From positions 1 through 64,000 of the forward strand of contig JAITVK010000026.1 of NCBI GenBank assembly GCA_031285845.1: 64,000 bases of DNA. The letters run 5' to 3'. The DNA is from Propionibacteriaceae bacterium. Lineage in GTDB: Bacteria > Actinomycetota > Actinomycetes > Propionibacteriales > Propionibacteriaceae. The translations under genes and the position numbers were made by a program. Positions 13,631 to 64,000 of the stretch are shown in pieces. The notes beneath the pieces are model-generated. The model saw nothing but the letters and a program-made list of their open reading frames with translations. It was not told the origin of the DNA and made no database searches. Position 1 is the stretch's first letter, and the number at the start of each line of letters is the position of its first letter.

Positions 13631-14243
13631 GCTGTTCCCCAAAGAGTCGGCCCCCACGATGACACTATGCGGAAAGCCTAGTCGCTCCGGTATTCGTACG
13701 CCAATGAAGGGGCGGGGTGGACGCGCGGGAGCGCCCGAGGTGGGGGTGCGCGGTGGAGGTACGGGACCCACCCCGGGGTCGCCGGAGCGCAGCGCAGGGA
13801 GCGCGGAGGCGCGAGCGCGGTGTCAGTCCCCGGCATCAAAACAGCGCAAAATCGAACTCCGACAGCCCGTCTCAACGGTTTTGCCCCGATTTCGACGCGA
13901 ATCGGCCTCAGAATGCTCCATAGCAGGGCAAAACCGCTCTGTCACCCGCGAATCCTCCGATTTTGCCCCGTTTCGACTCGCCCGTACGGCACCAGCACCC
14001 AACTCCACTTGGAGCGTACGACCGTGACGAATTCTGAAGGTTCCGGCAAAACCGAGACATCGCCCATGATGCGCCGGGGGTGCCCGACGCGCTCGAGCCG
14101 AGACCGACCACAGACATGCCAAAGCGACGTCGCAGGGACAAGAAACCCGCGGCGCCGCTTCGCATGACCGTCCATCGCACACCGGCCTCGAACGGGCGAC
14201 CCACTGCGCGCCGAACGTACGACCCGCTGGCCGTACGCCCTAC
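13631..14243. other. intergenic, 613 bp, with inverted-repeat element
   Basis: Between the exporter start and the end of kduI. It holds a member of the dispersed repeat family at 13838-13978 and otherwise GC-rich sequence in which I see no gene. The open frames here on both strands lack recognisable domains. Confidence 0.5.
13838..13978. repeat. dispersed intergenic inverted repeat, locus 1
   Basis: Contains AAAACAGCGCAAAATCGA (13838-13855), GGTTTTGCCCCGATTTCGAC (13878-13897), CAGGGCAAAACCG (13924-13936) and CGATTTTGCCCCGTTTCGAC (13959-13978). The outer pair and the inner pair are each inverted relative to one another, so the locus can fold into nested hairpins. The same motifs recur at three other intergenic loci in the window. 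Confidence 0.65.
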
Positions 14244-22556: not shown

Positions 22557-22692
22557 AAAACAGCGCAATATCGTCGATTTCCCAGTCGGCGTGACGATCT
22601 GGGATGGGTTATGGGCCCGAAACAGCCCCGCCGGGCCTCATAACAGGGCAAAACCGCTCATCACCTCTCACAAGTGACGATATTGCGCTGTT
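22557..22692. repeat. dispersed intergenic inverted repeat, locus 2
   Basis: AACAGCGCAATATCGTC at 22559-22575 is perfectly inverted at 22676-22692. AACAGGGCAAAACCGC lies between them at about 22641. This is the cleanest member of the four-locus family and can form a 17-bp stem around a loop of about 100 bases. Confidence 0.7.
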
Positions 22693-22899
22693 GTGCGCCG
22701 CGCCGAGCCGTACGATGCGAGCCGAGGCACGGGAGCATGAATCGTGCATGGTTCGTGGCCGTTGGCTGAGGCGCGGGCCCGATGGGAACCGTGCACGACG
22801 CAGCCAAGGCATCGGCGGTACGGTCCACGGGCGCGGTCAGCCATCATCCCAACCAGGAGCCCGGGCTCGGGAAAGCCACTGTCCGCCGGGCAGTACCCG

Positions 22900-23111
22900 C
22901 GATCCCTCTAACCCAGGGAGGGTCGAGGGCAGCTCGAACGGGTTTCTCTGCCATATTGCCGCGATCCCTCTAACCCAGGGAGGGTCGGCCTGTCGAACAG
23001 CCTCCGACACACCATTCGGGGCCCGATCCCTCTAACCCGGGGGGGGTCGGGACCGTCAGAAGCCATCGATCAGTTTAGTCAGGCCCGATCCCTCCGACCC
23101 GAGGGCCGGTG
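22900..23111. CRISPR. CRISPR-like array, 4 repeats, 62-bp period, no cas genes
   Basis: Four partly palindromic 26-bp repeats start at 22900, 22962, 23024 and 23086, exactly 62 bp apart. Copies 1 and 2 are identical (CGATCCCTC at the left, GAGGGTCG at the right); copy 3 differs at two positions; copy 4 diverges at its 3' end, as terminal CRISPR repeats often do. The three 36-base spacers (22926-22961, 22988-23023, 23050-23085) are unlike one another. No cas gene is in the window, so this may be an orphan or decayed array, or a set of regularly spaced hairpins with another role. Confidence 0.45.
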
Positions 23112-40856: not shown

Positions 40857-41322
40857 AGTTGTTCTATCGTGGGCGATTTTGGCAGGCGGCTGCTGCTGAT
40901 CACGCCCGGGTCGTACCGGTCGCCGAGCCTCGGATGTCCGTGCCACTGGCTCTGATCACGGCGCGTATCGGCGCAAAATCGACGCCCACGAGGAATCCCG
41001 ATCGATCCGGTATGGGAAACAAGCCGACCTGAGCCTCTTCCCGCAGCATAGCCGAGCAAAATCGACTGTGCCGACTCAAATCGATCGATTTTGCGCTGTT
41101 TCGACCCTGAGACAATCCCGGCGACGCTATGCGCGCCTCACAACGGTGGTGATCCACCTCGCGAACTCCGCGATGACGGCCCCCAAAACCCGTCGGGATA
41201 CGACAGGTTTGTGGCGGCCACAAGCACCATTGTGACCGCCACAAACCTACAGCAGACGCATCCGCCGAGCTTGTCGAGGGCGAAGAATCCGAACGACCGC
41301 CACTTCACGTACGCCAACCGCA
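40857..41322. other. intergenic, 466 bp, with dispersed repeat
   Basis: Convergent region between the E2-like gene and alanine dehydrogenase. Apart from the repeat locus at 40970-41105 I see no gene. Confidence 0.5.
40970..41105. repeat. dispersed intergenic inverted repeat, locus 3
   Basis: GGCGCAAAATCGACG (40970-40984) and GAGCAAAATCGAC (41054-41066) face the inverted CGATTTTGCGCTGTTTCGAC (41086-41105). The element length of about 136 bp is the same as locus 2. Confidence 0.65.
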
Positions 41323-44778: not shown

Positions 44779-44928
44779 GTTCGACCCTCACGCTCGCGGC
44801 TCGGGGGAGCTCGACCTCAGCCCAGCGACCCACGAGACCGTTCGACCCTCACGCGCGCGGCTCGGGGCTCCTGCCACCCATCATCGACACGGTCGACGCG
44901 GTTCGACCCTCACGCGCGCGGCTCGGGG
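44779..44928. CRISPR. CRISPR-like array, 3 repeats, 61-bp period, no cas genes
   Basis: Three 28-bp repeats start at 44779, 44840 and 44901; copies 2 and 3 are identical and copy 1 has one change. They begin GTTCGACCCTCACGC and end GCGGCTCGGGG. The two 33-base spacers (44807-44839, 44868-44900) differ. A 28/33 layout is that of type I-E arrays. With only three repeats and no cas genes nearby it is either a remnant or another kind of regular repeat. Confidence 0.4.
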
Positions 44929-47343: not shown

Positions 47344-48096
47344 GACGGTCCTCCTCGACCTCCATCGTACGGCGAAACCTGGGGGCGCGGAGTGATTCCG
47401 GACGGGCCTGTGGCGACCGTTCCCCCTGTGACTCCCGACGCTCCGGCGGCGACTCCTCCTCGCGCCAGACCAGCATTTTCTCGCCCGACGGTCGCCCGCC
47501 GCGAGACGGAACTCCTCGGCTGACTCGAACGAGCGGCAAGTGACGGCGGAACTCCCCACCGACAGATCAGCGCCAGCGGAGTATGCGCCCGTGCGAGACA
47601 CAGACCGGACCGAACGCGTACCAGAACCCCGCAAAATCGACCGACTCGGGCAGCCGCCTGCGATATTGCGCCGTTATCGACCGAATCTGGGCCACTACGG
47701 ATCAAGAACGGAGCAAAGTCGACGTTCTCGCCGAAATCCAGCCGGTTTTGCCCCAGTTCGCCCTCCGCTCATCAAAACCCGTCACAAGACGTACCTCACC
47801 ACAAGCAACAGACGGCCCGTACCGGATTTGTCGCCCGATCCGCGACAAACAGGGCCACAAATCCGTACGCACCCAGCACTCGGCCCCCGGGACGTACGGC
47901 AAATGACGGATTCCGAACGGGCCACGGCGGCACGCGCACAAGCTCGACCCCTGAGCCAAACCCCTCACGCGGATCGACGGGGATCCGAAGGTACGAGAGC
48001 CCCGGGCCGTGCGAGACCTGAATCGACGGAGATCCGATGGCATCTCGAGCACGTCCGACGACATCACGAGTACGAAGGCCCCAAGCCGAGGGCTCG
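47344..48096. other. intergenic, 753 bp, with dispersed repeat
   Basis: Between cutC and the GNAT gene. It contains repeat locus 4 (about 47629-47760) and a short direct repeat (ATCGACGGGGATCCGAAGG near 47973, with a related copy near 48022). I see no gene. Confidence 0.5.
47629..47760. repeat. dispersed intergenic inverted repeat, locus 4
   Basis: CCGCAAAATCGACCGAC near 47629, GCGATATTGCGCCGTTATCG at about 47660, GGAGCAAAGTCGACG near 47710 and GCCGGTTTTGCCCCAGTTCG at 47741-47760. The same alternation of direct and inverted motifs as in the other three loci, but more diverged. Confidence 0.55.
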
Positions 48097-63200: not shown

Positions 63201-64000
63201 GATCCTTCGACGTGGCCGCCTCGTTGAAGGGTGAGCCAGTCAACACCGCGACAGTCAACTTCCTCCAAGCGAGCAGCCCGCAAGTCACGTTCACCACGCC
63301 CGCGAATGGTGCGGTGGTGTCCAGTGGTCTGCCGTTGATCGCTGGTACGAGCACGATCGCTCCCGTCGAAGTTCGCGAAGGCGCCACCACGCTGTGCACC
63401 ATCGACCAGCTCGACGAGAAGGGCGGTTGGGCTTGCGTGTTGACTTCACCGCTGAGCGAAGGCGCGCACACACTAACCGCCTCGGCGGGCCCCGACGGCG
63501 CCACAACCACTGAGGTCACGCTCACTGTGGACACGAAAGCTCCAGCCAAGCCGGTGATCACCAGCCCGACGAACGGCGCCACGCTGGCCGCGCCCGCCAC
63601 TGACCTCAAAGTCAGCGGCACGGCGGAGCCGAACGCCAACATCGTCGTCAAGACAGCTTCCGTGTCCCGAGCAGCCGCCCCTGGCAGCTGCGAGACCACG
63701 GCCAACGCTCAGGGCGATTGGTCCTGCACGCTGGCTCCGCTCGCCGCTGGCGCCCACACCTTGTCGGTGACCGCCACGGACGCGGCCGGACATGTGTCGC
63801 CCGCCGCCGAAGTGACCATCACTCAGGCGACGGCATCCACTAGCCCGAGCCCCAGCGGTACCCCGACAGGCCCGACCGAGACACCGACTGGACCGACGGG
63901 AACCCCGACCGGTCCGACCAGCACACCGACCGGACCAACTCAAACCCCAACGGGACCCACGGGAACACCCACCGGACCAACCGAAACACCAACCGGACCA
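60284..64000 (+). CDS. giant secreted Ig-like surface protein, 3' end outside window
   Basis: An open frame of 1,239 codons running off the right edge. The N-terminus has a signal peptide (STVFLAMVAAIMLTVFSGVF, cleavage likely near residue 41). About eight to ten bacterial Ig-like domains of roughly 100 residues follow, seen as repeated GVYTAKFTS/GNYTATLTS strands, Big_1-type TDKDGVAKTTLTDT turns and paired Cys at domain edges. From about residue 1186 a Thr/Pro stalk repeats TPTGPT plus one variable residue at least seven times. It is probably a wall-anchored or membrane-anchored adhesin; the anchor is not in the window. Thr content is very high, suiting O-glycosylation. Confidence 0.85.
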   Translation, partial: MTTTSNAHTIRRSSTVFLAMVAAIMLTVFSGVFNTPADADDTVTTAATGCTLSFAVTPTGATPVLADGTASWTGTVTPTNCSNLTATQVSFTPSDPSVRASAITTTSTGAYKVTFTSTQAGKFTVEAKYATTSLGVQEIVFLTSGPDAAHSSLAVTPTSATVPCDGTVQLTAAATVRSTQDEPVAGVEVTFTLGASQTTTAKTNADGVATLTINAGAQAKPLPVAASILQSGTATAITGSPTNVTLTAQENCDSVAMTVAPTATGTVAADGKASWTATITLKNHAGDPITDAPATAFVFQFARAGEPTGLVTASAVSQTSPGTYTAKLTAIYPGDYAVTAYYYQTPSQPQTVTFTSATVDTQGSTLTVSPTTVTIPCDGTDPQKVEAVVALVDSQGAPAAGVQASVTINDGTPTVVTTGTDGKATVTITTPKNGAGSTMTVKATVQVGGQTVELKNSPTKVTLTPAPGCTPTIGSWGLKLSRASQSVNMPITVTASFKDSDGQPITNLDPAKLTFVPSSNKVSVGEVTNNGDGNYTATLTSATVGEYTLAMSYDGKDLTGSKTVAFSYVVGSTFAADPQRVCVGESSDLTLKLQDSAGKPYAAIDVTLSTSGSATLGQTTVTTDKDGVAKTTLTDTVAETVTIHAKALTTSGNVEDLVTPIDVTFVTGCGTTQPPAPAFTVAGTTSDTVWANGQDSWTGTVTVTDAQGARVSTLTASDFDFTVTPSGVTVSEVTNAGNGVYTAKFTSRTASTFTVAPSVKGFPDPATRTITFTTAATTPNSIERLTLTPDQVQVTEPAEGCSTGPTTMDPSTVAAVAHVTDATGQPATGVTVTFSTSGPLVLSASTAVSDSAGNAQVRLTMGESYDGATAVDVKATLGDGQPTLTSQVKLNGAPTQPGTGSTFTVAPTTGTTVLADGRQSWTGTLTLRVPCSGATWSPADFSFASTPAGVTASAVTAVSDGVYEVKFTSTTAGSFDVAASLKGEPVNTATVNFLQASSPQVTFTTPANGAVVSSGLPLIAGTSTIAPVEVREGATTLCTIDQLDEKGGWACVLTSPLSEGAHTLTASAGPDGATTTEVTLTVDTKAPAKPVITSPTNGATLAAPATDLKVSGTAEPNANIVVKTASVSRAAAPGSCETTANAQGDWSCTLAPLAAGAHTLSVTATDAAGHVSPAAEVTITQATASTSPSPSGTPTGPTETPTGPTGTPTGPTSTPTGPTQTPTGPTGTPTGPTETPTGP

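Follow-up and report, generated by a model that had tools for sequence, protein, structure and literature searches.

Type I-E Cas1-Cas2 joins a prespacer of ~33 bp to both ends of a target of 28-29 bp, and gap repair duplicates the target. Nivala, Shipman and Church (2018, Nat Microbiol 3:310) reportedly overexpressed Cas1-Cas2 in Escherichia coli and described a few putative natural cases. On the basis of overexpression experiments, it has been proposed that new CRISPR arrays with new repeats can arise by off-target integration. Off-target chromosomal integration by overexpressed Cas1-Cas2 has been reported (Nivala et al., 2018, as referred to in PMC11788318 and in PMC9456107), and integration at repeat-like sequences outside arrays has been described in vitro (PMC8047081).

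Most of what is known of this process comes from laboratory work; here, a natural bacterium seems to bear many traces of it. The window, by which we mean the whole 64-kb stretch of DNA analysed, carries a short array of four repeats and three spacers (Table 1), which we interpret, at a probability of about 0.72, as a small neo-CRISPR array produced by off-target integration by the resident type I-E Cas1-Cas2. Like the neo-CRISPR loci of Nivala et al., it combines a spacer-length insert with a repeat-length target duplication at a non-CRISPR chromosomal site, and a type I-E Cas1-Cas2 is the proposed enzyme here as well; in contrast to them, a single natural genome here holds about a dozen apparent fixed events, of which three are multi-spacer. 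Such a genome, with apparent events of 28 + 33 geometry that each have a different target and that in three cases comprise two or three spacers, would make it possible to measure how neo-arrays choose their targets, grow and decay. It would also provide a simple test for annotation, as short orphan arrays with the period of a resident array may be integrase scars and not unknown systems.

Anatomy and setting of the array

Table 1. Coordinates of the array, of its neighbours and of the second short array in the window.
Feature	Start	End	Strand	Remarks
Repeat R1, CCGCGATCCCTCTAACCCAGGGAGGGTCG	22897	22925	+	29 nt, same as R2; putatively the youngest end
Spacer S1	22926	22958	+	33 nt; unlike S2 and S3
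Repeat R2	22959	22987	+	identical to R1 across all 29 nt
Spacer S2	22988	23020	+	33 nt
Repeat R3	23021	23049	+	2 mismatches in the 26-nt core; GGCC prefix common to R3 and R4
Spacer S3	23050	23082	+	33 nt; putatively the oldest
Repeat R4	23083	23111	+	terminal copy, degenerate; 17/26 core bases
RpiR-family regulator (HTH_6 + SIS)	23173	24057	-	array just past its 3' end
Class III aminotransferase	20213	21613	-	first identified gene across the intergenic region from RpiR
Family A dispersed double hairpin	22167	22323	.	neighbours array; GACACAACCCTCCCCAAG half-sites at 0+, 45-, 94+, 139-
Family B dispersed double hairpin	22560	22692	.	neighbours array; GCAAAATCG half-sites, 21-nt variable loop
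Second short array, repeat GTTCGACCCTCACGC[TG]CGCGGCTCGGGG	44779	44928	.	period 61 (28 + 33)

The starts of the four repeats (22897, 22959, 23021 and 23083) are separated by 62, 62 and 62 bp, and a 24-base repeat pattern with 3 mismatches allowed has 3 matches against 0.00 expected from shuffles; no fifth copy was seen at 62 bp to either side of the array. Identity to the core of R1 runs 26/26, 26/26, 24/26 and 17/26 from R1 to R4, a polar decay that leaves R4 with 9 differences, its degeneracy sitting in the 3' half. The initial annotation had described four repeats at exact 62-bp spacing with a last copy degenerate at its 3' end, and both points are confirmed; the three spacers that it gave as 36 bases long are indeed mutually unrelated (local alignment p 0.09-0.22), but they measure 33 nt, because the repeat is a little longer than given there, R1 and R2 being the same over 29 nt. 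The repeat itself is a partial palindrome with an asymmetric centre.

Judged by the features commonly asked of CRISPR arrays, the locus has near-identical repeats within the range of 21-47 bp at regular spacing, with R4 degenerate, and diverse spacers of similar size, all three being 33 nt long; it falls short of more than three spacers or a known repeat, having three spacers and a repeat seen nowhere else, and CRISPRCasFinder assigns arrays with fewer than four spacers to its lowest evidence level (PMC7145573). The array is not a coding repeat, since its period of 62 bp cannot be divided by three. An Rfam search of the array region found no RNA family, and RNA folding of the region gives a stability no greater than that of shuffles (z -0.43).

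The array occupies an intergenic region of ~1.5 kb, with an RpiR-type regulator on one side and an aminotransferase on the other. This region is not conserved in 18 congeners, and no empty, single-copy site was found in a relative. For spacers kept in relatives as ordinary intergenic sequence, one of the two observations named beforehand as adverse, the relatives offered no orthologous intergenic DNA, and a search for the orthologous locus by way of RpiR brought up only distant homologues (25-43% identical) with different flanks.

The repeat is absent from 199 genomes of the family with 3 mismatches allowed and, as an exact sequence, from a collection of 84,980 genomes and from IMG/VR, which agrees with the earlier remark that it matches no familiar array type. 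Irregularly dispersed copies, which had been named as an observation that would speak against a CRISPR array, were looked for throughout its own genome, and no copy was found outside the array. The proposed check of the spacers against phages and plasmids gave no match for S1-S3, and no source was found in IMG/VR or in ~97% of the own genome either. Searched by 16-mers, the spacers hit 107 stretches in IMG/VR, the best with a full-spacer identity of 25-26/36, which we judge to be chance level.

The resident type I-E system and loci of the same geometry

The array had been called Cas-less and, in line with this, no cas1, cas2 or RAMP gene was found within the 64-kb window. Genome-wide the label does not hold: a full type I-E system lies on another contig, C7, so that 'Cas-less' is true of the window only. 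Its operon (cas3-cse1-cse2-cas7-cas5-cas6-cas1-cas2) is complete, and C7 is the only contig with cas1 and cas2 matches among the genome's contigs searched; neither a second cas1 nor a RAMP gene was found in the genome. Cse1 is present in 5 of the 19 genomes of the genus. The operon is followed by a native array of at least 36 repeats of GTGCTCCCCGCTCAGGCGGGGATGATCC, spaced by 61 bp (twice by 62) and reaching near the contig end, with a repeat/spacer geometry of 28 + 33.

The window array resembles this native array in its 28-29 nt repeats, 33-nt spacers and period of 61-62 bp. It differs from it in the repeat itself (CCGCGATCCCTCTAACCCAGGGAGGGTCG against GTGCTCCCCGCTCAGGCGGGGATGATCC), in a lag of 62 where the native one is mostly 61, in having no adjacent cas genes, and in its three spacers as compared to at least 35. 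The two repeats show a weak likeness (best ungapped alignment 13/21, p 0.08), and no likeness was found between the flanks of the window array and the native leader.

This geometry recurs elsewhere in the genome, with other repeats. In a lag scan of 0.77 Mb, and leaving aside coding low-complexity repeats, we found three arrays of three copies or more, in the window at 22897 (62 bp) and 44779 (61 bp) and on contig C4 at position 108405 (61 bp), whose repeats all differ. The array at 44779 has copies at 44779-44806, 44840-44867 and 44901-44928, which enclose two unrelated 33-nt spacers, and is located upstream of the position where a glycerate-kinase-like gene probably has its true start; our coding mask, a crude and simple ORF heuristic, dropped it. 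The scan was widened to 2.3 and then to ~2.6 of 2.68 Mb (~97%), covering non-coding DNA with the native array removed. At identities of at least 22/24, it gave 9 loci with lags of 60-62 against 0.27 expected from the other lags (Poisson p 1.6e-11), where lag 60 was added after a first look and lags 61-62 alone give 7, leaving the conclusion unchanged. The corresponding figures are 11 against 0.47 at ≥21/24 and 14 against 1.25 at ≥20/24, where some of the two-copy loci, about 1 of the 14, must be due to chance. None of the other lags from 36 to 130 rose above two loci at any of the three thresholds. The inserts at the 60-62-lag loci are unlike and every locus has its own repeat sequence, while the medians of the listed loci, 28 for the best-segment repeat and 33 for the spacer, equal the native figures.

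The control for this excess is mainly internal, as it consists of the other lags of the same genome. Outside it, viral contigs showed no comparable excess at lags 60-62, and a Streptomyces plasmid, a small control that carries I-E arrays of its own, had no locus of lag 60-62 outside them. A coincidence with the periods of coding repeats was considered and excluded by the masking and by lags that are not multiples of three.

As a set, the pseudo-repeats are closer to the native repeat than their own shuffles are (13.1 of 28 on average, against 12.0; p 0.008), and closer also than random non-coding DNA is (p 0.0005). Examples are GGGGCGTGCGTACAGGCGGGGCGTCGGG (L227, contig C9), which has CAGGCGGGG in common with the native repeat and in register, and GACGGCCCCACTCACGCGGGACCGACCA (L305, contig C29), which matches it at 17/28 positions.

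When the spacers of all 60-62-lag loci were compared with phages and plasmids, nothing fell below E 0.8. Inside a phosphofructokinase-like gene of the same genome (C13:120893-120923), 29/31 nt match spacer 1 of the C4 array, GAGGCCCGCGTCGGTGTCATGCGTGCCGGTGGG (E 7e-7). The match ends at the spacer borders, outside of which the identities are 9/20 and 5/20, and a match bounded in this way was found for only 3 of 8000 random 34-mers, which for some 22 spacers amounts to an expected ~0.01. The capture of a ~33-bp prespacer would leave such a match behind.

Readings of the array

Two features of a neo-CRISPR locus, a resident Cas1-Cas2 of matching type and a repeat-length target duplication around a spacer-length insert, are both present. 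In the proposed course of events, the resident I-E Cas1-Cas2 would have put a ~33-bp fragment into ordinary intergenic sequence and not into the canonical array. This first insertion would have duplicated ~29 bp of the target, as at a real repeat, and the duplicated target could then have served as a pseudo-repeat for two further insertions at the same, left end, yielding four repeats and three spacers. The identity gradient, in which R1 equals R2 and both exceed R3 and R3 exceeds R4, suggests three such rounds from the left. We infer the enzyme, the order of insertion (S3, S2, S1) and the left end as the leader-like side from these features, and the same lag of 60-62 bp at loci with their own repeats, together with a complete I-E system, indicates ectopic integration by Cas1-Cas2 at unrelated chromosomal sites. 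Several observations count against this reading: no source was found for S1-S3 and no empty site in a relative, R4 is very degenerate, the window repeat taken singly is but weakly like the native one, and its lag is 62 where the native array mostly has 61; the chance loci at the loose threshold, the later addition of lag 60 and the crude coding mask also weigh on it.

The anatomy could also stem from another CRISPR-Cas system, since lost, whose orphan array with a true repeat of about 29 nt is now in decay, as conserved repeats, unrelated spacers of equal length and a degenerate terminal repeat would all be found in such a relic. We nevertheless regard this as unlikely, given that the repeat is absent from the family genomes, the large genome collection and IMG/VR, that no second cas1 or RAMP gene was found in the genome, and that a separate lost system would be needed for each of the other 60-62-lag loci, the explanation fitting the window locus alone. 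Of the initial annotation, 'CRISPR-like' is right as to the anatomy, but the orphan array of an unknown system that 'Cas-less' suggests fits poorly with about a dozen other loci of the same lag, each with its own repeat, in a genome with an I-E system.

Two further explanations do without CRISPR integration. Helically phased protein-binding sites, 62 bp being close to six turns of DNA, would be akin to the hairpin families A and B in the neighbourhood of the array, whose conserved motifs are exactly spaced and separated by variable sequence, and the partial palindrome of the window repeat would suit them. Yet each of these families repeats one motif 10-30 times whereas the window repeat is confined to a single locus, and R1 agrees with R2 at all 29 nt, the asymmetric centre included, which suggests copying; as phased sites would also leave unexplained the differing repeats at equal lag and the gene-fragment spacer of the sister array, we find them quite improbable. 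The array has still poorer prospects as an ordinary tandem duplication or a false-CRISPR repeat (VNTR, STAR-like), although orphan predictions often include false CRISPRs, 54% of them tandem repeats (PMC5294841), and although it shares with the false-CRISPR elements of that study (tandem repeats, STAR-like) that it is short, isolated and without nearby cas genes. Unlike them, it has diverse spacers without similarity to one another and a single-locus repeat that is not dispersed, and it is not called by Tandem Repeats Finder; the unlike spacers largely rule out tandem duplication.

The array probably plays no part in immunity: its hairpin differs from that of the native repeat, which makes it doubtful that Cas6e would process it or that Cascade would use it. 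A broader proposition, for which we see the chances as evenly balanced, is that the I-E integrase of this lineage regularly inserts spacers into ordinary intergenic DNA, with some sites growing one-endedly into multi-spacer arrays with new repeats; in that case, one could follow in a natural genome how new CRISPR arrays originate.

Hairpin families and a further repeat in the window

The hairpins of family A are each exactly 63 nt long, with a variable 27-nt loop, and are spaced 94-95 bp apart; there are about 10 copies, on contigs C2, C5, C12, C19, C25, C29, C34 and C37. A link between the window repeat and this family by way of the common word AGGGAGGGT was considered and, by our own estimate, judged to be chance.

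In family B, GCAAAATCG inverted repeats are paired around a loop that varies in sequence but always measures 21 nt, and two such hairpins lie 82-83 bp apart; the family numbers 32 hairpins genome-wide, congeners being at background level. In the window it is found at 22560-22692, 13846-13966, 41056-41094 and 47631-47751. The fixed loop length combined with variable loops suggests a protein-bound element or a structural constraint. Of the 16 ectopic-array loci listed, six have a hairpin of this family no more than 500 bp away (C4:108405, C4:48588, C5:4951, window 22897, C29:58093 and C9:39443), a proximity that apparently exceeds random intergenic placement and that could reflect permissive intergenic regions common to both or a link to target choice.

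At the right edge of the window, positions 63860-64000 hold a low-complexity repeat of 21/42 bp, which seems to run past the window end and probably encodes a threonine/proline-rich stretch.
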